Shown here piece after piece: positions 25,788 to 63,679 of a stretch of DNA of 64,000 nt (within the stretch, counting starts at the first letter, position 1; each line of letters starts with the position of its first letter). Source of the stretch: Heterotrichella gracilis (Eukaryota; Sar; Xanthophyceae; Tribonematales; Xanthonemataceae); NCBI GenBank assembly GCA_032358255.1, contig JAULBX010007996.1, positions 54,829-118,828 of the forward strand. Direction: 5' to 3'. The position numbers were made by a program, and so were the translations under genes. The notes beneath the pieces were generated by a model. That model had not been told where the DNA came from, made no database searches, and worked only from the letters and a program-made list of their open reading frames with translations.

Positions 25788-28700
25788 TCACTCGGACCGC
25801 CTGGATGACGGCAGCACGGACTGCCTCGGAGTGACCCTAGGGTTGACAAGCAAGTGCCTGTTTCGCCTGGACAGGTGCCACAGCAGCAGCACCCCCAAGC
25901 CTCCTGCCACCGCAAAAACCTGGGACATGTGTAGCCCCCAATGCGCCTCTGAATTCATCTGCTTTCGGATCTCGTGGGGCTTGGCGATGCTGAAGTACGA
26001 AAGCGTGGACAGCGCGCTGTCGATCAAACTGCTGACGCTGGTGTCCTCCTCATCCCCAGCATCCTCCTCGTCATCATTCCCGGGACCGGTGGCGTTGCTG
26101 GGGATGGGGGCCACCACTGCGGCATCCGTCAGATTCCCCATGGGCTTCATGTGCAGGGCGGTGATGTTGTCAATGGCCTCCATCCCTATGGCGGTGTGCT
26201 GCGCGATCTTGGAGCGCGCCGCGTTGATCATGGAACTGATCTGGTCCTCTGTATCGGTCCCAGCTGCTCCTGGGTCAGCAGTAGTCTGGTTTGTGTTGGT
26301 TTCAATGGCCTCTCGCTTGACTTCCACCCCGCCCTGGGGGCTCTGAGCCAGTGGAGGGTCGGAAGAGTGGCCTGACTCGGGGATGGCTTCCAGGTCAGCG
26401 TGAGGTTTCCCGTCCTCCACTGTGGTCGAGTTCCCCCCCTTGCCACCCTGCTCAACGGCGTCCTCCCCTTCTGCTGCGCCCGAGTCAGCCCCCTTGGCAC
26501 CCTGGCCGGGAGCGTCCTCCCCTTCCGCTGCGGTTGAGTTACTCCCCTTGTCGCCTAACTGATCACCAATCAGGGCTGCGCCCCCATGAAGGACCGTGGA
26601 TGCTAACCGGTCAGGCTGAGACGCCACCCTCCCCTCCCCATCGCTCCCTGTTTCACTCCCCTTCCCCTCCCCCTCCCCCCCCTGCAACTCGCTACCCTTG
26701 TCCTCACTCTGCTGCTCCCCTTGACCCCCCACCCCAGCATCCCCCTTGCTGCCCCCCCTCACCATCACCTCCCCGCCCTCCCCCCCTTCATCCACCACCA
26801 CATCCACCTTGGAGCCCCTCTTCAAGGGGTCATGATCCAGCTTGGCAAGGGGGTCATCGGAATGGAATTCAGGGGGGGAATTGGAGTAGCATTGCAGGGG
26901 GCAGGAGATGGTGCGTGAGAATTGCGTGAAGTTGACGTCAGTGGTGCGCTGAGGTAGGGGCCCGGGGACCACGTGGGGCACAGCCAGCTTGCTCTCGGGG
27001 GTGAGCAGGCCAGAGGTGCCCTGCAGGGATTTGGGGAGTGGGTGTGTTTAGGGCACTGGGAAGGGTTTTTGGGGGGGAACGCGTGCCGGAGGTGCACTGC
27101 AGCGTGATGGTGGCGAGGATGAACCGACTTAGATTTAGGGTACTCGGCTTGACCTGAGGATCAGCGCACGGCGCAAAGTGGTTTGAAGGGCCTTTGTTGG
27201 TCCAAAAGCGTTGGCGCGTAGGATTCAGAGCCCGAAACAGGGCGCTGAGAGGGCCAACAGGGGATGGAAGATGGTCGGGGTTTTGATCTACATTAGGGTT
27301 TGCCACAATAGGATTTCCTTAGGATTTTGGCCACGACCCACCTCTGTCGCGTATTGCAGGAACCTCTGCAGCACCCTGAAGCAGTCGTTGCGCATGTGGG
27401 AGGAGTCCAGGCAGTTTGAGTCCCCGTACACCACCACCCGCCCCGCGCCCACCTGCGTCAGGCCCATGATGGTGTGCTGGTCCACAGGGCCGGAGTTGCC
27501 TGCAGGGTGGGTGGGGTGGCGTGTTAGGAGGGGGGGAAGGGCTATTGGGTGGGTGCAGGGCGCGCTTTTGCAGGGTAGACTAGGTAGGGTACGTGCATGG
27601 CGGCACATCGCCTTCCCAACTATGCGCGCAGTGCCTGACCCTTGCTGGGAAGCTGGCGCCTTGCAGATGTTGCCAGCCAGCTATGTGTGACTGGCATGCA
27701 GGTTTGACCATTCTGACTCACTTTAGGACAACAGACTAGCAGCTTTTTCCATTTTTTCCTCTTTAGATTTACTGACGTCATTTTCAACTTCCCTCCTCTT
27801 TCCCCCCACCTTGTGACTTGTCCCCCAGCAGCGCCGAGTACACGTGCCCCCCTTCAGGGAACCGCGCGATGTTTGCCCCCGACAAATAGTCGACCCGCTC
27901 CCCCACAAACATCATGTTCCCCTCCAGCACAGCCCGCCCAAAGCTGATGTTGAAGGGGGCAAGCAGGTCGTTGAGGGCGGGCAGGTTGGCGCCACCTGGG
28001 GTGGGGGGTGAGGAGGGTGGGTGGAGGCAAAGTCGACGTGGTGTGGTGGTGGTGGTGGTGTTTGTATTGTGCTATGCCAATGCAATGCTGTGTGTGTGAG
28101 TGATGGCATGGGCGGTGGCGCATTTGAATGTGGGGCCAGCGGAGGAGATAATACGGATGCACGCATGTGGGGGTTGTGCCGGCATTTGGGGGCATGTAAT
28201 GCGCCCTTGTGCAGCATATCGCCCAGGCCAGGTGCACATGTGCAAGCTGTGGTTCCCACAACAGACCAAAACCCCATGTAAGGTTTTGCACACCCATCCC
28301 CGCATGCGTTCCCCGTGACGGTCCCCCCCCACCCACACCCACCACCTTGAGTAGATATGGCATTGGAAATTCGCTCGCACCGCCACCCCCCCCACACACC
28401 ATCGCACCTGTTGCCGGCGTTTATCAGGACCTCATTCCTGAGACCAGTACCTGCCCTATCTCACCCGGCACTGATTCCCACCATACAAACCTAGCCTAGG
28501 GTTTGTCCACTGTGCCCATTCACCCCCCTGAGGATGACTGGAACAAACAATGTTGTGATCCATTATTCACCCTAAACCCTAAACATTTGCAACCCCACAC
28601 CCCCATCACCCCAGCCGCACCTGTTGCCGGCGTCCACCACGACCTCGTGTTGTCATCGTAGAAGCGCATGCGCACCATGACGTCCTCGTTGTACCACTCC

Positions 28701-31700
28701 CCAAACACCACCAGCCCCATCCCCCCTTGTGCCACGTCAGCAGCCAGCTTGGCCACCTCCTCGGGGTGGTACTCATCCTCCAGGTCAACCATGAGCAGGG
28801 CGCCATACTGCGGTGGTGGGTGGGGGTGGAGTGGGTGGTGGGTGGGTGCGGATTTTGTGTGTGGCTGTGCACATGTGTGTGGCGGGGGCTGGGCACAAAT
28901 TTTCCATTCCAATCATTACGCTTTTTCTTTCATAAAATTACATTATATGAGGGGGATTGCAGGTGCGTGGTACTCATCCTCCAGGTCAACCATGAGCAGA
29001 TCGCCGTACTGCGGTGGGGGGTGGGTGGGGAGTGGGTATGCGCGTGGCGTGGGGTCGATGGGAGTGGGTGGGTGAGCGCAAGTGTGGGTGTGCAAAAGTG
29101 AGCGAGTGTTTGTTTGTGCGTAATTGCTTGGTGAGGTGGTGGTGGTGCGAGCAGTACCCATCCTTCAAATCAGGCACATAAATGCATGGGTAGCTGCATT
29201 TGCAAAGCAACAAGTCATTGCCAATGGCCTACCTGAGCGGCATCAAAGCACGTGATTGGCGACCCCAGGATCTCCAGGAAGTAGCCCTGGGACCTCAGAA
29301 AATCATACATTGCGTGGTAATTTGTGTGCGGGTGGTCGCCATGCCAGTCCAGGATGTCATTGTGCACCTGCAGGTGGAAATGGGGATGGGGATGGGGTTA
29401 GAAGGGTACTCTAGGTGCAGTTGCCTAAACGCTTTATGAAGGGATTGCGCACTGTTAGCCGCAGAGTCACTACAGCCTAGTGTGTGGGGGCATAGGTACA
29501 TGCTCCTCCCCCATGCTCACATGAGTGGCTCTGGGATTTTTTACCTTTCAGGTGACGAGAAACACTTTTAACAGTGTTAGGCTGGTGCACTGCTACTGCA
29601 GAACATCGCCAGAAACAGAACCGTTCCTGGTGACCTGCAGAAAGGTCAGAACCCTAGTAGGGTTTTGGCATGCTTCGCCCAGAGTGGCATGGCAAGAATA
29701 CAGTCAGAATACAGTGCACTTCGCGTCCTGACAACGCCTATGCACTCTCGTCCCCGTAATGAACAACACAACCTATCGAAGTATCGATGGCGGAAGTCGA
29801 CCTTGTCCAGCCCGGCGTTGAGACCCACATTTGGCTTCAGGGCCAGCTTCCACAGCGAAAAGGTACTTCGTTCGGCGTGTGGCCGCAACTCGACAAGTAT
29901 CGTTGATAGGACTTTGATGGAACTTGACGGGCTCCACACAACCAACGCTCGCCCAGTTTAACGTACCCATAGCTTGCTTGAGCACGTTAATTGCCCCTCA
30001 ACGAGTGCTCCTGTCAGTCGGTTGCATGGGTGTTATGTAGAGGGAGCAGCAAGGCGTTGTGTGGATACTAACGCGGCGACTGCTCCAAGCAGGAGGCTTT
30101 TGAAATCAGTAGAACTCGGTAAGGCTGCTTTTGCACGTTGCCGCTTGTTTTAGACCGAGTTGTCTGTTGCTAGCGCGAGGCGAAAACGTGGGGATCGTGA
30201 AGGCGCGTGTGGGCGGGTGGAGCCTGAACCATGTCCACGCCTGTACAACTGTACCCCTCCATAAGACTCAACAGTGCTCAACTATCAACGCAGGCCTCGA
30301 CCCTTTAACGGCCCACAGCGTGCACAGCCAACGTTGCCCTGTTGAAACGGTAAGTACCCACCTCCCCCAAGCGCATTTTGAACAGACCTCATCCTGAACA
30401 GTGACCCAAACCGTCTCTTTGCAAGGCCCCAATTTCAATGCACTGTTAGGCCTGGCAAGCCTTGTTCCTGGTGCACGTTAGCAAGCATCACCTGGTCACT
30501 TCACAGCTGCAGATCCCCTGGGCAGTACTGACGTCCACTTGCTCAATTGACATCACGGCATGCCAACTGCAGTGCAGACAAACAGTGGGCCAAGATGGGT
30601 GCCAGCAGGGACCGCTTCGTCAGCTTCTGGACTGCCAAGATCGGGGTCAAGGTCCCAGAGGTCACAGTGTACTTCTGGATCATCAAGGTGCTGTGCACAA
30701 CAGTGGGCGAGACCTTTGCAGACTGGCTGGACTCCACCCTGGGGTTGGGACTGGGTGCAACCACGGGGATCATGTTCGCAATCCTGGCCGTGTTTATCAC
30801 CATCCAGTTCGCCCTGACCTTCTACGTCCCCCTGATCTACTGGACTACCATCGTGGCCATCAGCACTGCTGGGACGCTCTGCACAGACAACCTGACTGAC
30901 GGGGTGGGCTTTCCACTGTGAGGGTCATCCCTCATCTTCTTCGCCCTCCTCATGGCCACCTTTGGAATCTGGTACTGGTCAGAGAGGACCCTGGCCATGC
31001 ACAGCATCTACACGCGCAAGAGGGAGGTGTACTACTGGTTTGTCATCCTGTTCACCTTTGGTTTGGGCACCGCAGTGGGTGATTTTATATCAGAGGAAGC
31101 AAACCTGGGCTATGGGAACACCATGCTGCTGTTTGCAGGAGTGATAGCCCTGGTTGGGCTGTACTGGTACTTCCAAAAGTACACAAAGGCCAACGACATC
31201 TTTTGCTTTTGGCTGGCGTACATTTTGACCAGGCCGCTGGGTGCATCCATAGGGGATTTCCTGTCGCAGAAACCAGCAGACCAAGTTGAAGGGACTGATG
31301 AGCCCGTGCCCTCTGCATGGGACGGGGGCCTGGGCCTCGGTACCGCCATCACTAGTTGCATTTTCCTCGGCATTATTTTCGTGTTGGTGGTGTTTTTGAC
31401 CCTCACCAAGAAGGACCAGATCAGGGACCCTGACGTTTCTCAAGAGGGATTGGCAGGCGCTGAAACCGGCCCCGCTGAAGGTGACAGTGGCATGGAAAAG
31501 GCCAGGCAGTTGGGTGCAGTAGAGATTGTTTGAGTCGGGTGCACACTAAACAACGTGGGGCATGCAATGGCGTGTTTTGCTGTGTGATTGGACTCACGCT
31601 GCGTAACCTAGCGGTGACCATCTATGGGGTATTGATTGTTTGTAGAAATTTGCTTGCACAGCCTTGGGCAGAAATCAGATGCAGATAGTTAGTCAGTGTC

Positions 31701-34700
31701 ATGCGGCGGCAGGGTGTGTTCCCATGAAAATTTGTTTTTGCATGTGCGCAATCTAGCAAGTCTCCCTGTACTGAGTGCAGTAATGCGCAGGCTAATCATG
31801 TCAAAGTTGATCCCGAACCCCACGTCTAAAAATCGAATACATTTCAATTGTCAATAAATTACAAGTTTTTTCGTGTCTTCCAAGCCGTATTTCAACATGA
31901 TTTATATTTACAAGCCTTACGTCTTTGTCTACAAGCTTAGTGTCTTTTTTTTGTCTACAACCTTCATTTGGAACACCTTGGGACTGCTAGCTGCATGGCC
32001 TTGTTCATGTGGGTGAGTAGAAATCACTTTGCAGCTCTAATTCTCTCTAGAGTGCAGTGCTGTGCAGTTTATTCATACACTCGCAAGTTTTACCTTTTGA
32101 GTTTCCTTTGTTTATTCAAGCGCTATGTTTACAATCGCCACGGCTTTGATTATCTCTACAAGCCTTTGCGTATTTTTCTGCAATTTTTCTGCAAATGTGC
32201 ATCCTTTGGACTGCCAGAGGCTTCACTGCATTGCTCATATGAACAGCAAAAGCACAGGATTGTGCTATGGAGTAGCAGGCAGCTGAGGATTATTTTGTTG
32301 CCTTTCTGTAAAAGCTCACATGCGTGCATATTGACGAATGCTGCCGTCGCCGATTGGGGCTGTGTTTTCAAACACAGTTCTAGCTTATAAAAATCTGCTA
32401 CCGCGATTTAAAATCCTCATTCCGCAGTTTGGGTTTCAATTTGGTTGTGATTGCAATTGTCTACCTTGGTGTACTCCAGAGCCATCGTTTTTCCATATGA
32501 AAACCCAAAACAACAAGCCAAGCCACTGCGCACCAATCATTACACACCAGGGCCTGCGGCAGCCTAGTTTCATACGAGCAAAATGTCCACCTCCCAGCAA
32601 TGTTTTGATACATATCTTATTTACATGCTAATCAGTACTGTGCTAATGTAAATTTAAGCCTTAAATCTAATATCTCAAGGTTGATTCTTCAGATCAAATT
32701 GCCAGAAGGGAGGATTTTTGGCAGGCATGGCGCATGCATGAACCCAGGGGTGCCAGCATGCTTGCTCACCTGCAGGTTGTCCCTAGGGATGCCAAGTGAT
32801 AAAACACACATTCATGCAATGAATTCCCAGCTCACCTGCAGGTTGTCCCTTGGGATGTAGCCTGGCGGGTAGGGGATGGAGTGGAACTGGTCCCACAGCA
32901 GGCGCTGCGCCCTGAGCACAAGGGGGAAAAGAAGACGTGATTACTATAACAGGTACATGCGTGATGCTGAGCATCTTGTCCAAAGCAAATGGATGCAATG
33001 TCAGAAAGCAGAGTTGTAGTGATGGGGCATGTTGCTGTGTCAAGGGGTGCTGTGGAGTGTGCTGTGCAATTAGGGTTTAGGGTTTACGGCAAAGCAGGGC
33101 CGAGGCTTCAATGTATGAACACATGCATGGGGCGTGTTTGAAAGAAAGAAAGAAAGGGAACGCACAAAGGCGAACATGTCATATTTGTGCTGAGGATGGT
33201 ACTCTGGACCCTACTGTTTACACCATAGAACATCCTCTAGAAACAATGAAATAGATACTACCATCCGCACCTGGGCGGCGTGGGGACAATCTGCACTTTG
33301 AGGGGCACCGTCACCGTGGATTTCCTCCCCTGCGCCTCCCCCTTGTGAGGGGGTGAAATTATGGTGAAGGTGATGGCCCCCGAGGCCACGCCATTGAACC
33401 CCTCCCCCTCCGGCTTGACCCGCATGAAAAGGGCCAAATAGCCGGACCAGGGCCACAGTATTTGGCTGTATTCGAACCTCATGTCCAGTAGATCGCCCCC
33501 CTTGTTGGTGGGCATGAAGGTGGGGTCCGCCTCAAAATGGCCTGCAGGACAGCGATTCCTTTCATGCAGATGTCAAAGGATTTGGGATTTGTGAATGGGG
33601 CAGCAAGGGGGGCTGCTTTGCATGAACAAAGTACCATGGCTGGCGGAAAGCGTGTGTGTGTGTGGACAACACAGCACTGTCCAGGGGGGGAACGTGCACT
33701 AATCCACCGCCTCTTCCAAATACATATACGCTCCCACAGTCCCCCACAGGCAACCCATGTCCCCCCGCACAGCACCCACATATGAGCACACACATGCATC
33801 CCCTCCACCATTCGGCACCCACCGCCCCCCTCAGCACCCACCCGTCAGCCCCATCCCGTTGAGCACCGTCGCATTGAAGATGGTTGGCATGGCGTGCGCA
33901 AACATGGGCTGGGTGCAGAACGGCCACATGAAGGGGCAGTCGGTGAGGTCGAGGGAGGAGGGGACCAGGGAGGCGCGGGGCTCGTAGCGCTCGAGGATGT
34001 TCTGTGGGAGGGGAGCGGGGGTTGGGTGTGTGGGACGAGGATCACAACCCTCAGTACAGAAATACTTTGTGAAAGGTATGTGCACAATGGCATGCAGACA
34101 GTATGGTTTGTGTGTGCAGAATGGCCACATGAAGGGCAGTCAGTGAGGTCAAGGGAGGAGGGGACCAGGGAGGCGCGGGGCTCGTAGCGCTCAAGGATGT
34201 TCTGCAGGGGAGGGCGGAGGGTGGGTGTACAAGGCGAGAGTTACTCCCCTCAGTAAAGAAGCGGTTCCTTGTATTGTATGTGCACACAGGGACTGTGCAG
34301 AATGGCCAGCATAGGGGCAATCGGTCAAGCGCAGTGGGAACCACAATCCTTGGATTCTATTGAACACGCCCTTATTCAACCCTAATCCCCCCCTTGCACC
34401 CACCTTTGAGTTGATCAAGTTGATCTTCCCCTGACCCTGCTCATACATGCTCAGCCCCTCCAGCCGTGTCGCCCCCTCCACCAGCGCCTGCTTCATAGAT
34501 GCAGGGTTTATCACCGCCCACCGCCGCTCCTCAGGCACCACCGAAGCCAATAAACACACAGCCCCCGCCACCACTGGGGAGGCCACGGAAGTGCCCGACA
34601 GCATGCGGCAGCCGTCGCGGATCTGTGAGCCAACCACGTCCTTGCCATAGGCCATGATGTCGGGCTGCGGGGGTGGAGGGGGAGGGTGGGTAGGCGCAGA

Positions 34701-37700
34701 GGCTTCAATATATAAAGAAAATGCCGAATGCTTTTTGAGGTTTTCTGAATGTTTAAGCGCTATCATGTGCATAGCTATGGATGTGCCTAAAACCATGCGG
34801 CAGCCGTCGCGAATCTGGTATCCAACCACGTCCTTGCCGTAGGCCATGATGTCGGGCTGCGGAGTGGGGATGGAGGGGTGATAAGCGGTAGTGGCTATTA
34901 GCTTACTATGGGTTTGCTTTTCATTGGGTGGTACATGCAGGGGGATGGAGGGGTGATTGCTGATGGAGGATCCCACCCACACTATTGTAGAAGGCCATGG
35001 TGCAGGGCCGCCGGTGGTGAAAAGGACTTTGGGATGGGCTGTGCAAAGGATGTCACGTGAAAAAAATGATCCAACCGTCATGGAAATGCTGCGGTGTTTG
35101 CCTGAAGTCCTACACCATACATCCTGTAGTGGGAGTTTTCAACTTAGCGAATCCCCACCTTGGCCCGCCCGTATCCCCAGGGCAGCTCCCAAGTTGACAT
35201 GCCCCTGGAGGAGAAGCTGGCTATGCGGTCGTTGAAGTCAATGCCACCCACACCAATTACGTCGGCCTGGTCCGCTGGGTTGTTGAGCGTGCCAAAGAGA
35301 GGTCCATCGTTGCCAATGGCGGATATCATGAGGATGCCGTTGGAGGTGATTTCATACACCTGGGGATGGGGGTAGAGGGATATGATTGGAACCAATTGCA
35401 TGAGTTGGTGTACGCGGCGGGACGGGATTGGCACACACAGGAGATGGGGAAGGCAGTGGGGGGTAACAGGGGCATCCTAGCCACTTGCACAAGAGTTACT
35501 GACCAGTGCTGCTTCCAGTGCGCTCAGAACACAAAGTGCTTAACACCCTCTGTGCATACCCAACACGTGCTCAGAGAAAGCTGTTGCGGGCAGCGGGAGT
35601 TGCACCGGGAGTGACAAAACCCTAAACCCTAAACCGCCCAACGCCTGTCTGCGCGTACCATCAGTAAAGGTTGCCTCAACCCCACCCACACCACACACAT
35701 CCACACCTAAAACCATGCACACCCACCTTCTCCACAAATGGCAGGTCCAGGTAGTCCGGCCCCCCAATGGACAGGTTGACCACGTGCATGCGGCTGGCAA
35801 TGGCGTAGTTGAAGGCGTCAAGGAACCAGGAGGTGTAGGAAACCTGGGGTTGGGGATGGGGTGTGTGAAAGGTGGGGGGGTGGAAAAGAAAAGGGCAGGA
35901 GGGGGGGGAGCAATGGCATAGTTGACAAAGAACCAGGCCGTGCAGGCCGCCTTGGATGGGTAGGAAGGGACAGAGGGACAAGGGGGAGGCAATGCTTGGT
36001 GTGCTGTTACTCCCCTCCTCCCAACCATAAACCCTGATTTACTTCCTGGGTCCTCCCTGGTTAATTGCAGACACCCTAAATGTGTACATCTCCACCTCCC
36101 CCAAACCCTAACCTGGACCCTACCCACCTGGTCATTGGTGAACACTCTGAACGTATACAACTCCACCTCAGGCGCAAAGCCTGGGCACTCTTGCGCATGG
36201 CTGCCCACTACACCCGCCACAAAGGAGCCGTGGCCCAACCCGTCCTCAAGCGTGTTCTCATGGGTCCAGTTGCTGCGCTCCCTACAGGATGGGGGATTGG
36301 GGGATGGGGGTGGTTGGGTGGGTATGGCGTGTGTGTGGCCTGTGGATGGAGTGGGTGCGATATGTGCCGTGGCTGCGGGATGTGGTGCTTGGGAATTGTT
36401 GGTGGTAATGTGGCTCTTTGCGTGTGGTGGGTAGTTGGTGGTGGGCCACAATCCACAAGTGCATTGCTCAGTCCCAATGTGGCCCCTATGGGTGGTGCAT
36501 GTGCATGTGAGGGCCCAGCCACAGCCACCACCCGCCGCAACTTTCTTTGCACCCCCACACTCCACCCCCCACCCCCCACCGTCCTACCTGATGTTGCGCA
36601 AATGCGGGTGGTCCCCGCGCACCCCCGTGTCGAAAATGCCCACTTTCACCCCCTTGCCATTGAACCCCTGGGCCCAAATGCGGTCCGCCCCCATCAGGGC
36701 AGTCACCGAGGGCCGGTTGAAAAGGGCCAGTTTGCGGCTGATGTTGGTGAGATTTGTGCGCATCCAGGGGGGGTAATCCGACTCGATGTCCATGCTGGAA
36801 CGGGTGTGGAACCTGGTGGGGTGGGAATGCGTGGATCTCAGGCGCCCAAAATTTGGCCAAATTTTGGATGCAAATAAGGACCTGCTTCAGGAAGCCATGA
36901 CTGGCAGCAAGGGTAATAAGATAATGATGGGACCTATTATTATCTTATTACCCTTGCTGCCAGCCATGCCTCGCCTGCAGCAAATAAATATCAAATTTGC
37001 ATACATAATTCCTGTACCATGAATGTACATGTGTGTGCGGGGAGGTCCATGCAATTCCCCGGGTCAGCAGTTTAGCAATGCAACCTGCCCAGGGTTTTTT
37101 GAGAAGGTCACCCAACAATCCCCTCCCCGCCGCCATGCAGTAGGGATCACATTTCAGGGTTTAGAGATCAATGTAGCCCGCACATAGACCTGCCAGCCTG
37201 CTTTGTAGCCGTGAGAGGGTCAGCAGCACTGGCATCCCACCTCCCCATCGCAATGCATTAGGGTTTCGGTGTAGGGTTTGGGATTTAGGGCTGCCAGCCC
37301 ACGCACCTGCCAGGCTGTTTTGTGACCTTGAGCGGGTCAGCAGCATCCCCATCAGCATCCCGATCCCCACCGCCATGCCCCTGGGAGCCATCAGTGTCCA
37401 CCGCCAGCAGCTGCCTCATGCGCCGCTCGCTGTGCACGTCCTTCACAAAAGGTAGGGCCAGGAGCGCGGCCTGTGGCACAGCATGCAGGGTGTCATTGTG
37501 CAAGGTGTTACCCCAAACCCTAAACCCTAGACCTGCCCGTCCTTCAAAATGGCAGGGCAAAACCGCCTGTGTACTAGCGTGCGCGGTGTCACTCTAGTTC
37601 TAAAACTTAGCAGTGCAGCCTACAGAACTGGCCCCAAGGGATAGTGAGTGATGCCCCGGTCAGGGCATGCCTCGAGGGGAGTACGGCAATGCGCCTGGCT

Positions 37701-49500: not shown

Positions 49501-52500
49501 ATGCTGACCAAGTTTGAGACCAAGAGCAACCGCGTGAAGGGGCTGTCCTTCCACCCGAAAAGGTGGGGCATCGTGGCGCGTGTGCTCTTGCCAGTACTCG
49601 CAATGGAAACTGCTGTTGACATGGAAAGTACTGTTGCTGCAGGCCATGGGTGTTGGCGTCCCTACACAGCGGTGTGGTCCAGGTATGGGTCCTACAGCTT
49701 ATGGTATGTTGGTTAGTTATCCGTGTTTTCGTAATCTGACTCTGGGGTTGGTGTTGCAGCTATGGGACTATCGTATGGGCACCCTGATCGATCGCTTTGA
49801 TGAGCATGATGGACCAGTCCGTGGGGTGCACTTCCACAAGTCCCAGCCGCTGTTCGTGTCTGGAGGAGACGACTACAAGATCAAAGTCTGGAACTACAAG
49901 ACCCGCAGATGCCTGTTCACGCTGCTGGGCCACCTGGACTACATCCGTACAGTGCAGTTCCACAACGAGTACCCCTGGATTGTCAGTGCCAGCGATGACC
50001 AAACCATCCGCATCTGGAACTGGCAGTCCAGGAACTGCATCTCGGTGCTCACGGGGCACAACCACTATGTGATGTGCGCGTCTTTCCACCCAAGGGATGA
50101 CCTGGTGGTGTCAGCATCCCTGGACCAGACTGTGCGGGTGTGGGACATCAGCGGGCTGCGTAAGAAGACAGTGGCTCCCTCAGGAGAGGAGGGCCTCAGG
50201 CTGCCTCAGGTGCTGATGAAAAATTGCACCTACCATTCACTGGCACTCACACTTGCCGGTGTAACTTTACGCCTTATTGTTGGCCTGACAGTATCACACA
50301 ACAGATGCATATGCATCCAGGGTGACTGTGTGGTAACCCCTTGCTGCACATGCAGATGAACTCGGACATCTTTGGCGGTGGTGATGCGGTGGTCAAGTAT
50401 GTGCTGGAGGGGCACGACCGGGGGGTGAACTGGGCCTCCTTCCACCCAACGCTCCCCTTGATCGTGTCGGGGGCAGATGACAGGCAGGTCAAGCTGTGGA
50501 GGATGAACGGTACGTTGGGTGCATTGGCCAATCCCACCACTTGCCTGCACGTGTATGCTGCAGTGAATGGGAACTGCACTGTGATTGTTAAGTGCATTTG
50601 AGCTGGTACTGTTGATCCCATGTGCATCGCACTCCCAAAGCCCCACCAAACCCTCGTCCTAAAACCCTTCCTGCGGTTTGCCCGCCAGTTAAGCCTTGAA
50701 GCACCTTAAAGCTGAGTCCTACTGTGCCCCTGCAGACACCAAGGCCTGGGAGGTGGACACGCTGCGGGGGCATGTCAACAACGTGTCGTGCGTGCTGTTC
50801 CATGCCAGACAGGTATGTGGGCACATCTGCACACCTGCACCTTACATTTGAGCAATATACCTGCACTTCCATGACAGGCGTAGTGCCGTACACTGACCCC
50901 TGCATTGCACCTGCACCACACCTGCACCTGCACCACACCTGCACCTCCACCCAGGGTGGTGAGGGACGGCGCACGGGGGGCCTGAACTACCACCTCACGG
51001 GTTGCTAATTCCAACCTAAGCTTCACGGGCGCTGAGGCTGTTGTCCCCCACAGGACTTGATCGTGTCCAACTCTGAGGACAAGAGCATCCGCGTGTGGGA
51101 CATGTCCAAGCGCGCGGGGGTGCAGACCTTCAGGCGCGAGCACGACCGCTTCTGGATCCTTTCCTCCCACCCAGAGCTCAATCTGCTGGCAGCGGGCCAC
51201 GACAGGTGCGCATGCTCTATGCGGACCCTTGTGTCGCATGCATCTCCTCAGCTGCGCACACCTAGCGCGCGGGGGTCAAGACCAGGCAAAGTGTTGTCTT
51301 CCATGCAACACTTCAGCTGAGCCATCTGAGGCTAGCAGGACACAGCAGGCTTGAGTCCACGCACTCAACTTCACGATTAGGTGGCGTTGCTGGTGGCTTT
51401 GGTCGTGACCCTACGTAATACCCTAAGCTGAACGCTAACTGAACCCTAAACTGATTGTGACTGTGGTCCCTGGCAGCGGCATGATTGTGTTCAAGCTGGA
51501 GCGCGAGCGCCCCGCTTACACCACCATCGGCAGCATGCTGTACTACATCAAGGACCGCTACCTGCGCACCTACGATTTTGCCACGCAGAAGGAGACATCG
51601 CTCATCTCAATCAGGCGCACAGCAACCGTGGGCACCAACCAGGGCCCGCGCACGCTGTCCTACAACCCAGCAGAGAACGCCATCCTGGTCACATCGGATG
51701 CTGAGGGGGGTTCCTACGAGCTGTACATCGTGCCCAAGGATGCTGCTGGCCGCGACCTGGCACCGGTGCGCTTCCACCCATCCTAAACGCTAAACCCCTG
51801 AACCCCATCCCCAAATTGCACATAAATTGCATCCATGGCAGCTGGTATCACCCTGTATGACTGGCGAGCATGCAAGATGATTGCCAGGGAGAGCATCTAT
51901 CGGCTTTTTGCAACAGTACTCATTCATGAACCCACACCCTGGCCTTTGCCCTCTTGGACAATGGCCTGCCATACTGATGCACTATTGGTGCTGCTGGCGC
52001 GGGGGATGAACGCATTTGAGGCGGTACTTATGTATGCATGACATTATTTGGTGGACTGTAGTGCGGATGCTGGGCGCCGCATGTGCAAGGCCGGCTGCCA
52101 ATGCGGCTGTGATTGGATTGCATGTAACACACTGGCTGTGGTGCGCAGGAGGCCAAGCGCGGGTCTGGCGCCGCTGCCGTGTTCATCGCGCGCAACCGCT
52201 TTGCGGTGCTTGACAAGGGCGCCAACCAAATTCTGGTCAAGGACCTGCGCAACGAGATCACCAAGAAGTGCCCGGCGCCATGCGCAACCACCGACGCGCT
52301 GTTCTACGCAGGCACCGGCATGCTGCTGTGCCGCTCCGAGGACAAGGTGGGTGGGCAGGTGGTTTTGCGGGAGAGGGGGGAAGGGGGGGCACAGCACGAA
52401 TCCTAGGAAGCACTGGTTTGGGCTTGCCCTGGTCTGGAAGCCAGGAATGCTGTATACACAGCAGGTGTCTTGCTTCGGCCTTGCCCTAGTTTCCAACGCT

Positions 52501-55500
52501 GCTGCCGCTGCTTGAGCGTCGCCGTAAATCCTCCCAAGCTGATTCTCAAAGGGTTTAATATATTCTCAAGGGTTGTCTTCTTCTGCGCCTGGCCCTGGCC
52601 CGAGTATGACTGATCGCCATCCCCCCGCACCCCGCAGATGGTGCTGTTCGATGTGCAGCAGCGCAACTCGGTCGCCGAGCTGACCACGCCCTTCATCAAG
52701 TACGTGGTGTGGTCCGGTGACAGCAGCCAGGTGGCGCTGCTGAGCAAGCACGCCATCATCATCGCCAACAAGAAGCTGGGCAACCCCTGCACCGTGCACG
52801 AAACCATCCGCGTCAAGTCCGCGGCCTGGGACGACAACGGCGTGCTCATCTACACCACGCTGAACCACATCAAGTACTGCCTGCCCAACGGCGACAACGG
52901 CATCATCCGCACGCTGGATGTCCCTGTGTACATCACCAAGGTGTTTGGCAATGTCATCTTCTGCCTGGACAGGGACGGCAAGAACAAGCAGATCCAGGTG
53001 GGTGATGGAGAAAATGGGATGCGCTGCTTAGGGTTTAGGAGTCACAATGTCATCTTCTGCCTGGATATGGACGGCAAGGACAAGATAGGGGGGTGGGGGG
53101 GTGGAATAGGGCTGGTGGCTGCAGGCATGAATCCATATGCATTGCACTGAGGGTGTGGGCAGCAGCATAGGACTTGCGATGGGTGCATGAAAATATGCAC
53201 ATGCCCTTGCATGGGTGACCCATGACTGCAGTGAAAAGGTCATTGGATGATCATCACGGGCATGTAATGCAATCATACAAATGAGGTGCAGCAGTCACCT
53301 TGGCCCTCCTGGCACAATGTATCACCAAACAAGCCATCGTGCAATCAAACAGTGGCATAATTGTACCCCGCCAAAGCATGAGCGCCTCCTAATCATCCGC
53401 ATCCCACCGCCCCCTTCCAGGTGGACACCACGGAGTACATGTTCAAGCTCGCGCTCATCCAGAACAAGTTTGACCAGGTGCTGGCCATGATCCGCAACAG
53501 CCAGCTGTGCGGCCAGGCCATCATCGCATACCTGCAAGCCAAGGGCTACCCGGAGGTGGCGCTGCACTTTGTGAAGGACGAGCGCACGCGATTCAACCTG
53601 GCGGTGGACTGCGGGAACATCGAGGTGGCGCTCAAGTCGGCGCAGGTGAGCCTGATGGCAAGCTCCATAGGGTTTGCTAGGGTTTGGCTTACGGTTCGTG
53701 AAATATGGATACATGGGCTTGGGAATGGCGGTGGACTGCGTCAGGGTAGAGGTGGCTCCCAAGTCAAATACTGCTAGGAGGGCTTTGTCTGCATTCATGT
53801 GTGGCTGCATAGGCTTGGTTGAGGGTCTGTGATGCGGCGGTGGGCTGCTCCCCTCCTCAGTCCCCTGACCCTTGCCCTTTCTCTCACCTCACCTCCCCTC
53901 TTGGCTGATTGCCCTCCTCCAATGCCCCCTTCCGCAGGAGCTCGATGACAAGGACACCTGGCACCGCCTGGGTGTGGAGGCGCTGCGCCAGGGCAACCAC
54001 CAGATCGTGGAGTTCTGCTACCAGAAGACCAAGAACTTTGAGCGCCTGTCCTTCCTGTACCTCATCACCGGCAACCTGGAGAAGCTGCAGAAGATGCTGA
54101 AGATCGCCGAGATGCGCAACGACATCATGGGGCGCTTCCACAACGCGCTGTACCTGGGCGACGTGAAGGAGCGCATACGCATCCTGGAGGACGCAGGTGC
54201 GGCGGGATACAGGCTTTCAGTCTTTTTGGGATTCCGGGTTCAGGGTTTAGCAACCCTAGCCACGCTGGGTGCGGACCCTCGCGCCTAAACGTGGCATGCA
54301 TCAGTGATCTGTATGTGACTGCACAAAACAGCAATCGCACAGCGTCGTCCTTGACATCTCCCGCTGTGCCCTGACTCCCCCCATTTTCACCCTGCAGGCC
54401 AGCACGCGCTTGCCTACGTGACCGCCGCCACGCACGGCCTGGAGGAGGACGCGCAGCGGCTGAAGGAGGGGCTGAGCGAGATCCCGGAGCTAGACTCGGG
54501 CGCGCTGTACCTCAAGCCGCCCACGCCCATCCTCAGGGAGGACAACTGGCCGCTGCTCACGGTGTCAAAGGGCGTGTTCGAGAACCTGACCAAGGGTAAG
54601 AACCAATCTTACCCCTAACCAAAGACCATAAGCATCCTTAGAGAGGGCATGTTGCTGAGGAGGGTGTCAGAGGGCGTGTTTGCAAACCTGATCAAAAACC
54701 AAAGTGTGCTTTGCTTGACTACTGGGCTAAGAGAATGGGCTATTTTGTGATGCATTCACTAGCTAGGATATGAGCTGAGGTTTGCATGGCTACACCCGAA
54801 CTGGCAGTTATGTATGGTTTGCATCTTGCGATCTGCTGTTGCTGATTACCTCCCTGTTGCGTTTTCAGATGACTCCACCATCGTGGCGCTGGAGGAGAAC
54901 GACATGGAGGGTGTGGGTGGGGGCTGGGGAGATGAGGAGATGGACGTGGATGCACCGGCGGGAGATGGTGCGTGCGCCACCCTGTGCACCTGTGGCATGC
55001 ATTGCACTGCTGCCTGCGGCGCTTGCCTGCGCACTGTGTGCGTGTTGCAAGGGCAGCAGAGAAGCTTGCAGCTTGCCTGCATGTGCACCCTGCTTGTACA
55101 CCCTGCTTGTGCACCCCTGACTCTGCCGTAGGGTGGGCCTCAGATGGCGGGCAAACCCTCCAACCCAACCCCTCGTGTCTCAGAAAGCGAGCTTGTGGCG
55201 GCCGAGGCATGCCGTAAATTGTGTCGACTCTCAACCCTAAACCCTGATCCTCTGTTGCAGACGCGGAGGAGGGTGAGGAGGGCGATGGCTTTGAGGACCT
55301 GGAGGTGGATGGGGAGGAGGAGGGAGGCTGGGAGATGGAGGACTTTGACCTGCCGGAGACCACGGGCACAGACACAGGGGTGGCGGGTGCGGAGGTGGCC
55401 GTGTTTGCCGCCCCCACGCCCGGGCTCAGCGCCTCGCAGCGCTGGCTGCAGCAGTGCAGCTTGGCGGCGGAGCATGTGGCGGCGGGCGGGTTCGACTCGG

Positions 55501-58013
55501 GCATGCGGCTACTACACAGGTGGGGCGCGCAGCAGGCTTTGTGCAAGGGGGCTTGTTTCTCCTCCTGTTGTCATCGTCAGGTTTGTTGCCATCATTTCTC
55601 CCTCCTCCATGTTCTGTAATGCTTGTGCTACCTGAGGCACAGAGGGCACAGGCATTGCAGAATAAGAGGATGGTTACAGTGGTTGCAGCCGAATCGACGA
55701 TGGAAACTGCGAGAAGAAACCCGCTTACAGACAATTTATTGCTATTTTAACCTAGTGCCCTCCAGGTGACTTTGTCTGAAACTTACTTTGAAGTTTGTAT
55801 GTGGAGTCCCCGCATCATCTTTAAGATGTGACAATGGGGTTGGCCTGGAGGGGCTTGCAGCCGTATGTGGGTGTCGGGCTGGTAAAGTATTGCCTGGCAA
55901 AAAGCACCTCCACCTGCACCTCCTCTCTGACCCCCTGTCATTTTCTTCTGCGGCAGCTGGGCATCGCCAACCTTGGCGCTAAGCTAAACCCTCCTGGCAG
56001 CTGAAGGTGTCCAACCTTTGACACTAAAACCTTACTCCTTAACCCCTGCAGGCAGCTGGGCATCGTCAACTTTGAGCCGCTCAAGCCCTACTTTGTGGCT
56101 GTGTACCAAGGGGCATACGGGTGCTTGCCGGGCCTGCCGGGCCTGCCCTACAATGCCACGCCCATCGAGCGGACTTGGTCAGTGGACTCTCCTCCCACGT
56201 GGAAGGACTCAACCACCACGCCCACACTGGTGCGCGCTGCAGCAGTTGAACCCTAAATACCAAACCCTAAGCCGCGCTTGTTGAGCAGCTGTGGTTGGCC
56301 AAATCATCATGCAGTGAAAGGAGGCCACCGCCAAGCGGACGCTGGTATGCGCACCACCCTGTACAAAGTACAAGCTCCGCAACATGCCATGGTTTGCCAC
56401 AGTCTGGTGGGTTGTAAATTTGGTTGTATTTTCCCTAATCCCCTTGCTTGTTAACAAGTAACTGCTGACCTTCCCCTCTCCTTTTTCTGACTCCCTCCCA
56501 CTCTTGCAGGTTTACTCCCTTGCCCAGCTTGAGGACGCGGTGAAGAAGGCGTACAAGACGGTGACCGAGGGCAAGTTCTCCATTGCCCTGCGCCAGTTCA
56601 CCTCCATCCTGCACACCATCCCGCTGCTGGTGGTGGCCACGCGGCGCGAGGTGGACGAGGTCAAGGAGCTGCTGGCAATCACAAGGGACTACCACACAGC
56701 CATGCGCATCGAGCTCAAGCGCAAGGTACTGTTTGGTTGTGGTCATCCGAGTCCAGTAGGAGGTTGCTCCTTTCCGATCAGTTTGCAGCTCTGATGTCCT
56801 ACCACACAGCATCCAGCAGCAGCGCAATGTTGGGTAGCTACATGCAATGTAGCAGTACAAGTTACTGGCCAATCTTGCATACACGGCGCCGGGCATGTGC
56901 AAATGGGTATTGTCATTGCTTTTCATTACAAGTGCAAAGGACTGGTACCGTTAGATTTTCTGGCATGATTCTTTTAATTAGGTGAGGTCTTTTCTCCAGG
57001 TCTTTTCGAAAACCATGTATGCACTCCTTTCCCTTTTCCATGCCCTTGACCTCCAACACCCAAATTCAAACCTGCGCCTTTGTTCCACCAGGAGATCAAG
57101 GACGACGGCGTGCGCGTGGCTGAGCTCGCTGCTTACTTCACGCACTGCAAGCTGCAGCCCGTGCACCTGGCGCTCAGCCTGCGCTCCGCAATCGCGGTGT
57201 TCAGGAAGATGAAGAACTTTGCAACCTGCGCAACCTTCTGCAGGCGGCTGGTGGAGCTCAACCCAGGGCCAAAGGTGGGGCGGCGGTGGAACTGGAATGT
57301 GAACTAACAAAAGTGCTCTTTTTGTGGGAATTGAAAAGAGATGATGGTCATTGAGATTCTGATTCGTAGGAAGGAATCCTTACCTAAAGCGTGGTGCCTA
57401 GGATACCGTATGTACGCAAGCCATCATTTAGGGCGTCAGTCGTTAGCAAATAGATCATCCCCTGCCGCCAGGCATGCACCCCATATGCTGAATGCCCTGT
57501 GCACGGATGACGTCCCTAGACCCCTACCCTAAACCCTCCTCTCCCCTGTGCACAGATGACCCAGGAGGCACGCACCGTGCTGGCGGAGTGCGAGAAGAAC
57601 CCCACGGACGCAGTGAAGATCAGCTACGACGCGCGCAACCCCTTCGACGTGTGCGCAATGACGTTCACACCCATCTACAGGTAGGCCAAACAGCCCAGTG
57701 CGCGCCACACATTCGCACGCCTTGTTGCCACTACACGTATCTATGTGGCAGGGCATGTGCACCTTCGCGCACACAGGGCCATCCTTGCAAGCGGTGCACT
57801 GCACACAAGCATGCTCATTCAATACTTGAGAAATAATGATGTTTTACCTGTGAAAATGCCAATTTCTGCAGGGGCAACAAGTTTGTGACCGACCCCTTCA
57901 CGGGTGCCCGCTTCCAGCCAGAGTGCGACGGCAAGCTGAGCCCGGTGGGCGACCTGGCCATGATCGGGGCAGACGCATCGGGACTGCTGTGCTCGCAGAC
58001 GCAGATCAGATAG
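49501..58013 (+). CDS. COPA: Coatomer subunit alpha (alpha-COP)
   Basis: Scaffold of the COPI coat in Golgi-to-ER traffic. Nineteen exons, phases all agree, 3666 nt, 1221 residues (family about 1220): 49501-49562, 49643-49682, 49760-50209, 50356-50509, 50736-50812, 51054-51205, 51477-51765, 52149-52346, 52638-52997, 53421-53645, 53938-54196, 54398-54595, 54869-54967, 55261-55519, 56052-56229, 56510-56725, 57092-57274, 57556-57680, 57872-58013. Start [20 protein letters not shown] is canonical. WD40 repeats occupy exons 1-7 ([53 protein letters not shown]). The solenoid contains [17 protein letters not shown] and [15 protein letters not shown]. The acidic linker is in exons 13-14. The C-terminal epsilon-COP-binding region ends [12 protein letters not shown], then PFTGARF and a TAG stop. 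Exon 2 is only 40 nt. Several introns hold decayed copies of the adjacent exon. Confidence 0.97.
53036..53093 (+). pseudogene. Decayed copy of COPA exon 9 end
   Basis: AATGTCATCTTCTGCCTGGA recurs, followed by TATGGACGGCAAGGACAAGA versus CAGGGACGGCAAGAACAAGC in the exon (52951-52992). Immediately preceded by GCTTAGGGTTTAGGAG. In intron 9. Confidence 0.92.
53722..53770 (+). pseudogene. Decayed copy of COPA exon 10 end
   Basis: GGCGGTGGACTGCG...GAGGTGGC(G/T)C...AAGTC resembles 53600-53640 of exon 10. In intron 10. A GGGTTTGCTAGGGTTTGG stretch lies just upstream (53669-53686). Confidence 0.85.
54650..54705 (+). pseudogene. Decayed copy of COPA exon 12 end
   Basis: GGTGTCAGAGGGCGTGTTTGCAAACCTGATCAAAAACCAA parallels GGTGTCAAAGGGCGTGTTCG and AGAACCTGACCAAGGGTAAG of the exon/donor. 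In intron 12. Confidence 0.85.
55953..56036 (+). pseudogene. Two decayed copies of COPA exon 15 start
   Basis: GGCAGCTGGGCATCGCCAAC (about 55954) and GGCAGCTGAAGGTGTCCAAC (about 55998) precede the real GGCAGCTGGGCATCGTCAAC (56051). Both copies read on into AAACC-like sequence (CTAAACCCTCC, CTAAAACCTTA). In intron 14. Confidence 0.9.
56310..56352 (+). pseudogene. Decayed copy of COPA exon 15 end
   Basis: AAAGGAGGCCACCGCCAAGC..ACGCTGGTATGCGC resembles GAAGGACTCAACCACCACGC..CACTGGTGCGCGC at 56201-56235, including the donor. In intron 15. CTAAATACCAAACCCTAAG lies between. Confidence 0.7.
56788..56820 (+). pseudogene. Short copy of COPA exon 16 fragment
   Basis: ACTACCACACAGCCATG..of exon 16 (56690-56706) recurs as CCTACCACACAGCATCC at about 56798. 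Short, so weaker than the others. In intron 16. Confidence 0.5.
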
Positions 58014-58562
58014 GCGAGCAGCGCTGCACAGGGCAGGGCAGGGCTGTGTGCGTGGGCAGGAGCCCTGGGGGTGGCCTGCATACGCACAGCTATGGTCCAC
58101 TTGCCTAGGACTGTTTGGCCTGAGAGGGGATGGCTGTGTTTTTTTACTGTTCCTGTGTCCCTTCTGGGGCTGTGTGTGGGGGCCAGCGGTGGGGCAGGGG
58201 CTTGCAGCAGTCTGCTGCGGGGGTGGGTAGGGTGCATCATCATGTAGGATAGGCATTGTCATTGTTACACCACTTTCTCGTTTTGTTTCTATTCATTATG
58301 CGGGGCGTCATAATATGCGGGGGTGGATTGCCCTCTTGAAATATTTCTACTCGATGATTCGTTTTGCAAACCAGTTGAGCGAAAACCGCCATCGAGCTGG
58401 TGGCCAACTTGGAAGCATGGCTCGCTGTAACACACACACATCTGAGCAATGTGAATGGAATATCAATGATGGCATGATATTGTGACTCTGGGGTCTGGCA
58501 TTCGGTGTGCAACTACCTTTAAAATTTCAAGCAAAAAGATACGCAATTTTTCGCTTATCACA

Positions 58563-58599
58563 GAAAGAAAGAAAGAAAAGAAGGGAACGCACAGAGGCG
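58563..58599. repeat. GAAA-repeat dispersed element, copy 2
   Basis: GAAAGAAAGAAAGAAAAGAA followed by GGGAACGCACAGAGGCG and TAGTTAGG. See 33140 and 59030. Confidence 0.75.
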
Positions 58600-59029
58600 T
58601 AGTTAGGGGGCCACTGGCTCGCACCAGGGCACCACACCAGCCAGAACGGCTGGTCAGGGATAGGCCTTGAGGCCTACTTAGCCAATGCCCGCAGGCATGG
58701 CATGCAAAGTGTTTGGCGTTTAGTGTACACAGCATAGGAACCTTGAATAGCAAGGAGTTGCAACTCAGGAATCAGGTTGGCAATCACGCTTGGGGCTCAA
58801 CCAATAGCAGTCAGGGCGTCATTTAATCTAATCTAATGAACTTTCCTGGAACCACCTGTATGGTGGTGAGGTCAGCCGCCAAAGTCACGGCTTCAAGCAG
58901 TCAAAGCACATCTGTCAAACTATTTCAAAGCTTTGCTAGCACAGCTGCCTAGACACACCTGAGGTATACCTCCAAGAAGACTTAGTGCCGGCAGGAGCCT
59001 ATTAAGGCTGTGGCAAGGAATTTCAATCA

Positions 59030-59070
59030 GAAAGAAAGAAAGAAAGAAAGAAAGGAAACGCCCACAGGGC
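59030..59070. repeat. GAAA-repeat dispersed element, copy 3
   Basis: About seven GAAA units followed by GGAAACGCCCACAGGGC and ATAGCCAGG, a diverged version of the other copies. Confidence 0.7.
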
Positions 59071-61394: not shown

Positions 61395-62042
61395 GCTCGG
61401 CGCAGATGTTCAGAGCCATCCAAGAATTTACCCTCTGGTTATCTTTCACTTGTCCCCTTACCATATCCCTTGGCACGACTGGCACGGGATGACTGGCATT
61501 GGATGCAATTTGACGCGAGCATATGCATGCATGCCAATGTAATGTGGGCAGTTTACTCTAGATGTGTCATATTGTGTTCAAGTTTGACAATATGAAGGCA
61601 ACATAAAGTCGGTGTACGCGCTTTACTTGCCTTTCCTAGACAGAAATGGAGCGCAACTGCTCCTGTGCGTGCCTTCCTTCCACGACAAACGCCCAGTTCG
61701 AACTTGCAGCTGGACTGCAGTGCCTGCTGCCACGCGTCGCTCAAAGCTGAAGTGCAGCTGAAGTGCTTCATGTTTGAACACTGCCGCGCAATAACTTGCA
61801 CTATTGTCGCTTGATCACCCTCAACGCGTAGAATAAAGCTGGAGGTTTGTGGTCAGTATGTTGGTGAGGGCGCAACGCAACTGAGCCACGCACCAAGCGA
61901 ACAGAACGGAAGGCCTTCTGTGTACACCGTGGGCCTGCATCGGACAGAGCTCAACACTGACTGGGTGCCAGACCCTGCTACTCTGGGGTTTCACGCACCC
62001 AACCCACGTTTCATCTAGGTGATTCTGGAGCCACACCCCATA
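61395..62042. promoter_or_regulatory. Divergent intergenic region, J-domain gene / CPI1
   Basis: 648 bases between two divergent start codons. No TATA box evident and no coding region supported. Confidence 0.4.
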
Positions 62043-63679
62043 ATGGGTGAGTCTCAAATGTACACTGGAATCCCCCGCTTTCCCCACCGCCCACCCAACT
62101 TTCAAAGCTCACCTCAACAGCATTAAGCTTGCCCAGTCCTTGCAACTTGATGAACATATCACGGTAAGATTGCTGTTCACCGTGCCCGTGTTTCTGTTCA
62201 CTCAGCTCCCAAGAAGCATCCCAGCCTATGGCTTGCCTCCAACCCCAGCAAGCGGTGGACAGAGCTGTTCTTCCTAGCATACAGCCCCGTGTGGATAACC
62301 TGGGCCCTGGGGATCGTCGTACCCTTCCGCATATACGAGGTGCGCATGTATGCAGCAACAACTTTCAACCCACTTCAGGGTCACCCATCACGTCATCCTC
62401 ATCCCAATCACCCATTGCCCATTCAAGCTTTTCCCTGTTTGAGAAATGATCACAGTTTCTGGATGCGCAGTACTGTGGGAAGACAGGCTACATGGTCATC
62501 GGCTTGGCTGCCTCCCTCCCCTGTGTGCTTATACCCCTGGTGTGGGTGGGTGATGCCGACCGAGGCAAGCCCCTGCTCCAGCGGTACTGGGTCAAGGCCA
62601 ACGTCTGGATTGCCATCTTCAGCTTCATTGGCAACTACTTTTACACGCACTACTTTTACCAGCTGCTGGGCGCGGCATACACCTTCCCATCCTGGCGGCT
62701 CAACGAGGTATGCGAGGGTTTGAGTAGGGTATGGGAGAGGGTTTTCAGGGTGGCGTGGCCACCCACAGCCCTGGCAGCCCATCACCACCAGCCCTGGGAC
62801 TGATTTTGCCGTCCCTGCATCAGCAAATCATGCGCTATGTATTGGATGCTGCTTGGCACTCCCACCCAGGATCCCCACTGTGCATGTACCATACCTTCAC
62901 CAGGGAAATGCACACAGAAATATACACGATGCCTGTCGCTTTTCCCCAGGTGCACATCTGCACCAGGGAATTTTTTTGGGTATAATACACGGTTCCTGCC
63001 ACCTTTCCCCCAGGTGCCCATCTGCCTGTACTTCATGACCCACGCCTACTTCTGCTTCTACCACGCACTGTCAAACGTGCTGCTCCGGCGGGTCAAGAAC
63101 GCAACCTCGGGGGTGGCACAGCCGCTGGCCATGGGGGCCACCATCTTCCTGCTGTCCTACGCCACCGCATTTATGGAGACCCTGACGATAGCGCACTTCC
63201 CCTACTACACCTTCAAGGTGAGTCGCGTGGAAAAGGGAAGAAGGGAAACCATCCCAAAGGCGCACATGATGCGGTGGCTGGCTGTCATCATTGTTCTGTA
63301 CTTTGATGAGACGGTGGTACTAAAATGATTTAGACAATAACATGCTAACTAGGGTATAGGGTTCATGGCCATCCCTGCTCACAGCCTGTCCCCTTGAACC
63401 CAACATATTCTTGCGCTTCACTCCATGTGGCGCCCGCAGGACAAGACCAAAATGTACAGCTTGGGCTCCCTGTTCTACGCCATCTACTTCTTCGTCAGCT
63501 TCCCCATGTTCTTCCGGATGGACGAGTACGTGCGCGACAAGTGGACGGTGGTGCGGGCAGCCATCGACTCGATGGCTGCTGGCATGCTGGTGCTCATCCT
63601 GCTGGACCTGTGGAGGATAACGGTTGGGGGGATTGTGGACAACGGGGGGCTCACCGGGCTGCCGTGGATGCCGCAATAA
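62043..63679 (+). CDS. CPI1: Cycloeucalenol cycloisomerase
   Basis: Opens the cyclopropane ring of cycloeucalenol to give obtusifoliol in plant/algal sterol synthesis; an ER membrane protein. Five exons: 62043-62046, 62206-62339, 62471-62707, 63014-63217, 63440-63679; 819 nt, 272 residues (Arabidopsis about 280). Close match: SNPSKRWTELFFLAYSPVW, LGIVVPFRIYE, RYWVKANVWIAIFSFIGNYF, THYFYQLLGAAYTFPSW, SYATAFMETLTIAHFPYY, MYSLGSLFYAIYFFVSFPMF, FRMDEYVRDKW, and terminal LTGLPWMPQ. Several hydrophobic segments. The first coding exon holds only ATGG; this is inferred from a good GTGAGT donor and an in-phase MAPKKHPS start, so the true start is less certain than the rest. Confidence 0.95.
62941..62975 (+). 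pseudogene. Decayed copy of CPI1 exon 4 acceptor and start
   Basis: TTTCCCCAGGTGCACATCTG at about 62941 mimics TTTCCCCCAGGTGCCCATCTG at 63003. In intron 3, 62 bases upstream, with a usable-looking acceptor. Confidence 0.85.

Follow-up and report, generated by a model that had tools for sequence, protein, structure and literature searches.

Local duplications at exon-intron junctions and telomere-like repeats in Heterotrichella gracilis

What places decayed copies of an exon's end inside the adjoining intron? The question is raised by a 64,000-nucleotide stretch of Heterotrichella gracilis DNA (the window; C82:54829-118828 in the contig numbering of the analysis), in which introns of the genes for site-1 protease, Sec62, COPA and a protein named CPI1 carry imperfect copies of neighbouring exon ends, here termed echoes. 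They were first reported in a preliminary description of the window, together with TTTAGGG-like motifs beside many of them. The results moderately favour an origin in which segments crossing a splice junction would be duplicated in place by fill-in of staggered breaks, would survive through splicing, and would be focused on exons or exon edges.

The sample consisted of the window (64 kb), C2:1-200000 and four 10-kb stretches of other contigs, in total 304 kb or about 0.44% of the 68.5-Mb assembly (903 contigs), with one contig supplying two thirds of it. Genes were predicted with a small hidden Markov model, trained on COPA, CPI1 and RPL5 and then retrained on all 304 kb, and exons of at least 50 bp with a score of at least 12 were used (n = 301). 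The COPA model forms a single frame from start to stop, which served as a check on the gene finder. Adjoining genes were often fused in these predictions, and some echoes were called as exons.

Local direct repeats and their anchoring at junctions

A self-search for local repeats (offsets of at most 2 kb; the low-complexity filter took out no direct pairs) detected 17 significant direct pairs in the window, with no inverted pairs having separate arms and no pairs in a Markov shuffle. In C2:1-200000 there were 67 direct pairs, three inverted pairs with separate arms and none in the shuffle, while the four 10-kb stretches held 0, 3, 8 and 0 direct pairs and one inverted pair in total. The whole sample therefore contains 95 direct pairs vs. 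4 inverted pairs with separate arms; inclusion of self-symmetric hairpins brings the inverted matches to 33 (window 6, C2 19, elsewhere 8). Merging of overlaps and removal of offsets of 600 or more reduced the 95 direct pairs to 79 clusters, with offsets of 56-270 bp and identities mostly of 72-96%; the offsets showed no preference for multiples of three (26/79). The aligned length of the duplicated segment is mostly 30-100 bp. Both copies point the same way, either abutting or with up to 157 bp between them, with the predicted exon outermost and a non-coding, intronic copy inside.

The genes and pairs in the window are as follows.

28400..38079, minus strand: site-1 protease (MBTPS1), predicted exons (gene finder; Pfam MBTPS1 domains and Peptidase_S8)
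28377-28433 (echo) / 28589-28646 (exon end), minus strand: site-1 protease donor-side pair, 79% identity, spacer with two TTTAGGG (28570-28583)
28766-28836 (exon start) / 28967-29037 (echo), minus strand: site-1 protease acceptor-side pair, 92% identity, 130-bp genome-unique spacer
32764-32791 (echo) / 32830-32857 (exon end), minus strand: site-1 protease donor-side pair, 96% identity, the copy taking in the donor site
33910-34086 / 34111-34286, minus strand: site-1 protease acceptor-side pair, 81% identity, with a partial third copy at about 34294-34325
34587-34686 (exon start) / 34779-34877 (echo), minus strand: site-1 protease acceptor-side pair, 85% identity
37122-37228 / 37240-37345, minus strand: site-1 protease donor-side pair, 71% identity, near-tandem, with TTTAGGG-like DNA
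39397..42293, minus strand: Sec62, predicted exons (gene finder; Pfam Sec62, 8e-22)
40652-40828 (echo) / 40862-41044 (exon end), minus strand: Sec62 donor-side pair, 88% identity
41164-41192 (exon start) / 41293-41321 (echo), minus strand: Sec62 acceptor-side pair, 93% identity, spacer with TTTAGGG
41329..41614, minus strand: Sec62 tandem array, 2.9 units of about 84 bp, each with exon end, donor and TTTAGGG repeats
49501..58013, plus strand: COPA, predicted exons (gene finder; single frame; Pfam)
52949-52988 (exon) / 53045-53084 (echo), plus strand: COPA donor-side pair, 92% identity, TTAGGGTTTAGG in the spacer
53599-53638 (exon) / 53726-53765 (echo), plus strand: COPA donor-side pair, 80% identity
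54561-54593 (exon) / 54663-54695 (echo), plus strand: COPA donor-side pair, 85% identity
55948-55975 (echo) / 56046-56074 (exon start), plus strand: COPA acceptor-side pair, 90% identity
62206..63679, plus strand: CPI1 (name from the preliminary description), four predicted exons (open frame; gene finder)
62922-62961 (echo) / 62985-63025 (exon start), plus strand: CPI1 acceptor-side pair, 83% identity, E 6e-5

All seven sites given as examples in the preliminary description lie inside significant local direct repeats. The copies it reported in site-1 protease, Sec62 and COPA were recovered, and the identities of these three genes are backed by Pfam matches (for COPA, the first 821 residues were searched). 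In CPI1 the exon-start echo and an open frame are present, but the product matched no Pfam family at threshold, so that the name comes from the earlier reader only.

The dependence of the copies on exon ends was examined at 430 junctions of predicted exons of at least 70 bp with a score of at least 20, the terminal 60 bp of each exon being aligned to its own intron at score cut-offs of 30, 34 and 38. A copy was found at 53 of the 430 junctions at a score of at least 34, and at 40 at a score of at least 38. Introns shuffled between genes, the comparison that the preliminary description had proposed, gave a fraction of 0.0 at both of these cut-offs and 0.0012 at score 30, and the opposite intron of the same exon gave 0/388 at score 38. 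Chance similarity was rejected by the shuffled introns and the Markov shuffle. The copies were direct in 53 cases and reverse-complemented in one. Windows taken deeper in the exon returned fewer matches (18/430 at 30-90 bp, 3/422 at 60-120 bp, 2/388 at 90-150 bp, none beyond). On the intron side, 1.0-3.3% of windows at least 40 bp from the junction had an echo at score 34 and 5.3% of those starting 0-20 bp from it, the latter being partly the same duplications as the exon ends.

Classification of the 79 clusters agrees with an enrichment at splice junctions: 46 pair a junction with non-coding DNA, vs. 9.5 +/- 2.7 by random placement. A further 12 pair a whole exon with non-coding DNA, 17 have both copies non-coding, three have both copies touching exons (at least one of these being an echo called as exon) and one has both copies wholly exonic; random placement gave 9.9, 45.9, 8.2 and 5.5, respectively.

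An assembly artefact is very improbable as the source of these repeats. The assembly is a draft in 903 contigs, but misassembly yields neither copies of 72-96% identity nor codon-position structure (see below) nor anchoring at junctions.

Some inverted repeats were also observed. Four self-symmetric hairpins in the window (36883-36982, 39033-39160, 41876-42011 and 13257-13334; 80-137 columns, 75-85% identity) are possibly small non-autonomous transposons, and 166-bp inverted arms at C2 6546-6711 / 7523-7688, 89% alike and about 800 bp apart, are possibly a transposon with inverted ends.

Direction of the event and focus on exons

Mismatches between exon and echo occurred at rates of 0.113, 0.102 and 0.197 for codon positions 1, 2 and 3, and 25 of 59 exon-echo alignments had a gap within the exon part. 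The roughly two-fold rate at third positions fits an echo that no longer functions beside an exon that does. An echo drifting freely, paired with an exon drifting mainly at third positions, predicts p, p and about 2p, and the observed rates are close to this. The range of identities supports the spread of copy ages that had been described. In one case (C2 120945-121610) a single exon end has two echoes; identity to the exon end is 95% for the nearer and 75% for the farther, and the gene finder took the nearer one for an exon.

The DNA beyond the echo bears on which of the two copies is the older. On the donor side it is richer in G than the intron interior (0.326 vs. 0.248; z 4.2, 26 pairs), and on the acceptor side it is richer in pyrimidines (0.603 vs. 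0.52; z 3.8, 19 pairs); 17 pairs with short spacers, long intron parts or at the ends of stretches were excluded, and part of the signal could come from similarity that flank and spacer still share where tandem copies are old. A splice-site-like flank in this position suggests that the echo is probably the former exon edge, and that the spacer and the outer copy are the newly added piece. Together with the presence of direct copies only, this composition points to an in-place duplication which would shift the junction outward.

The preliminary description had suggested, as one possibility, repair of breaks within the intron with a nearby exon edge as the template. Local templates are known in break repair (PMC7407515), and three young spacers were unique in the genome, as original intron would be. 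The composition beyond the echo, however, resembles that expected next to a former splice site, the copies end at the junction and do not sample exon or intron evenly, and reverse-complement copies occurred at 1 of 430 junctions vs. 53 direct ones. Templated repair into the intron is thus unlikely. What stands of the original proposal is local duplication, probably by break repair, while copying into the intron interior does not. Templating of exon ends in reverse complement was rejected on the same 1/430. The suggestion that introns grow by these copies agrees with the median intron length, which is 393 bp with a duplication and 303 bp without.

Some units are present in more than two copies. 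In the Sec62 array, 41329-41528 and 41409-41612 are 82% identical, and two extra copies equal the exon end exactly over 40-42 bp. At locus L037, a 112-bp unit occurs four times (94-97% identity over 205-nt stretches) and holds TTTAGGG repeats, a donor and 60 bp of exon-end-like sequence, which has an open frame but is absent from the gene predictions. A plain array near C2:4700 has three copies of a 53-bp unit.

The anchoring at junctions might arise by survivorship: small duplications would fall uniformly, exonic ones would be lost and those at junctions kept, and pairs with an exon copy would be recognisable for longer, the exon hardly drifting. This was simulated as uniform duplication on the real C2 sequence, followed by a survival filter, drift, indels and the same repeat search, the sizes, indel rate and filler being the analyst's choices. 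Of 3,500 simulated duplications, the search recovered 861 that were non-coding, 348 at junctions and 5 of whole-exon type. Survivorship accounts for the missing exon-internal copies and for part of the junction excess, since detection per event was 0.508 at junctions vs. 0.307 in non-coding DNA (1.65-fold). Nevertheless, the simulated junction share was 29% (348 of 1,209 non-coding and junction events) vs. 58/75 observed (p about 4e-18), where the 75 are 58 clusters of junction type and 17 non-coding, the 3 + 1 clusters of other classes being excluded. Within 214 trusted introns, 50 events span a junction and five are internal, against an expected junction share of 0.55.

The shape of the segments bears on the same point. 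Among 24 young pairs (at least 88% identity; one repeat wholly in exon was excluded), 18 have an exon copy, and in 17 of these 18 the exon part is longer than the intron part, vs. a simulated 0.58-0.61; the median lengths are 38.5 bp and 8 bp. The segments have their centre in the exon and reach into the intron only as far as needed to include the splice site. Uniform duplication filtered by survival and nothing else was rejected on these three grounds, and survivorship as the full explanation, already strained, is given a low probability. The exon-heavy segments and the junction excess over the simulation indicate that events appear to be focused on exons or exon edges beyond the effect of survival.

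Base composition was recorded for the same compartments. The CpG observed/expected ratio was 0.61 in exons, 0.46 in introns and 0.55 in DNA far from exons, with TpG/CpA at about 1.5 in all three. Such depletion is as genome-wide cytosine methylation would give, and these ratios gave no sign of an exon-specific methylation.

Telomere-like DNA near the junctions

Because contigs C70 and C140 start with arrays of CCCTAAA, TTTAGGG was taken as the telomere repeat; the two contig starts are presumably true chromosome ends. Exact (TTTAGGG)3 occurs 834 times genome-wide (reversed control 0), so that short repeats of the genome's own telomeric kind are present away from chromosome ends. Families of TERT and Ku have matches in the genome.

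The 304 kb contain 173 telomere-like islands, four of them in exons. Duplication regions make up 5.5% of the non-exon DNA and hold 45 of the 169 non-exon islands. The median distance from island to junction is 67 bp vs. 270 bp for random non-exon positions, and the density per 10 kb is 14.7 in trusted introns and 2.9 in DNA more than 300 bp from exons. Within introns, 24 islands fall in the first 20 bp (6.3 expected) and eight in the last 20 bp. Islands are present in 30 of the 79 clusters, vs. a null of 11.8 +/- 3.2 with a maximum of 20 in 300 draws, which upholds the reported link between echoes and TTTAGGG. Genome-wide, CAGGTGNG is followed within 30 nt by TTTAGGG in 1,305 matches (reversed control 23) and by CCCTAAA in 902 (reversed control 17), while TTTAGGG followed within 30 nt by CAGGTGNG gave 311 (reversed control 22); these are counts of matches, in which a donor with several repeats is counted repeatedly, and the exclusion of the motifs from exons explains part of the contrast.

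Within 150 bp of acceptors, islands have the CCCTAAA orientation in gene sense in 35 cases vs. 10, and near donors there is no preference (38 vs. 35). The acceptor-side islands might supply a branch site or pyrimidine tract. This C-rich bias could also reflect selection that retains echoes or islands as splicing aids or regulators. Against this, the drift of echoes at the first two codon positions is about that of an unconstrained copy, they contain gaps, and the donor-side islands lack an orientation preference, so that a selective role is very doubtful. Telomeric DNA goes with the process, and might be its filler, mark a fragile site or have been inserted independently at these positions.

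The idea that filler generally derives from a dispersed inserted element was rejected: 6 of 58 spacers had matches elsewhere in the sample (one of them to L001, which is the same place twice) vs. 4 of 58 control intron stretches, and the three young spacers tested were unique genome-wide. A dispersed repeat does occur, which begins with AGAAAG repeats and GGGAACGCACAGAGG-like sequence (window 33135-33178, 58562-58597 and 59033-59068; L035 5695-5760), and a reversed piece of it lies in one exon-echo spacer of L035 (85% over 40 bp). As a guess, it may be a short retroelement.

Proposed mechanism and comparison with known systems

In the proposed pathway, a staggered break would arise near an exon edge, for example from two nicks on opposite strands. 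Once both ends had been filled in and joined, the segment would be present twice at its original position, and the copies would often be separated by filler in the form of TTTAGGG repeats, part of a dispersed repeat, or sequence without an assigned source. If the segment held a splice site, the outermost site would be used, giving the old mRNA, and the event would survive; a wholly exonic segment would be lost. The stranded old exon edge would then decay within an intron lengthened at its end, and some units would expand into arrays. The TERT and Ku matches in the genome, and the fill-in reaction known from elsewhere, are in keeping with this pathway.

Several observations weigh against this pathway or parts of it. 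A simple rule in which telomerase extends the broken 3' ends was not supported: 10 of the 23 islands in spacers have the orientation that it predicts. Of the 63 islands no more than 50 bp from a junction, 41 have no detected duplication. All three young spacers tested were unique genome-wide, with no source elsewhere, so that for these three captured filler is only putative. The intron part of the pairs diverges by 0.176 vs. 0.145 for the exon part, less than the doubling expected if both copies drift freely, the figure being biased by alignment ends. The nearest echo was the youngest in six cases, not in five, with one tie, and provides no reliable rule. Finally, breaks, nicks and repair are read from the sequence, and the underlying genes are predictions within the 304-kb sample, in which one contig predominates.

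A stronger version of duplication in place is possible, though less likely than the general pathway. Here, a mutational process would target exons or their edges, breaking them and rejoining them with a duplication and with filler of telomeric or other kind. Events would survive only if they straddled a splice site, and the survivors would be a main route of intron lengthening, moving the boundary outward. If true, introns would record, in fossil form, exon damage that would otherwise have been lethal.

The results suggest that small junction-crossing duplications lengthen introns while leaving the protein unharmed. About one in eight predicted junctions (53/430) holds a datable record of duplication whose parent is held nearly still by selection, so that a single genome gives access to the sizes, fillers and relative ages of the repair events. 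Intron lengthening and the tolerance of junctions to local mutation are usually inferred from rare cases. If upheld, the exon-edge focus would tie transcription, splicing or chromatin to sites of DNA breakage. The echoes are also a warning for annotation, as they resemble exons and some were called by the gene finder used here.

Templated insertion by polymerase theta produces copies in both orientations. For one form, a review gives direct or inverted copies (PMC7407515). In H. gracilis, 53 direct copies and one reverse complement were found at 430 junctions. In the AGGT model of intron gain by tandem duplication, a new intron is bounded by the two copies, both of which touch an exon; here both copies touch an exon in 3 of 79 clusters, and in at least one of these an echo had been called as an exon.

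Introners are gene insertions, algal ones included, which are shaped by splicing and target duplication (PMC9860276). Unlike their duplications of 3-9 bp, those found here are tens of bases long, and no common inserted element was found; the spacers showed no shared family across introns (6/58 vs. 4/58, and three of three young ones unique). In a potato RdRp gene, one tandem duplication across an intron-exon boundary has been described (PMC4974935). That case gained a new intron and an inserted exon, whereas here the intron count is constant and the inner copy is stranded.

In mammals, telomeric repeats occur at repaired breaks, with duplication in 6 of 130 rodent and 4 of 25 primate insertions (PMC2246262). 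The H. gracilis islands are similarly short internal telomeric repeats, some with duplication. Unlike in mammals, where duplication concerns a minority, the islands cluster at exon junctions, and their orientation gives no support to two-end extension. Among the best-ranked titles and abstracts, mostly non-subscription, there was no description of exon-edge echoes with telomeric DNA, nor of a genome with such duplications focused on exon edges at this frequency.

The closest systems are the natural insertions in rice, where small tandem duplications arise from staggered breaks (Vaughn and Bennetzen 2014, via the review PMC7407515), and the fill-in of 3' overhangs by CST/Pol alpha, which yields duplication in place (PMC8355091). 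The H. gracilis duplications differ from these in their focus on exon-intron junctions and in the presence of TTTAGGG. They resemble them in size (tens to hundreds of bases), in being direct (95 vs. 4 inverted with separate arms) and local, in their full or partial tandem arrangement and in the occasional presence of inserted sequence.

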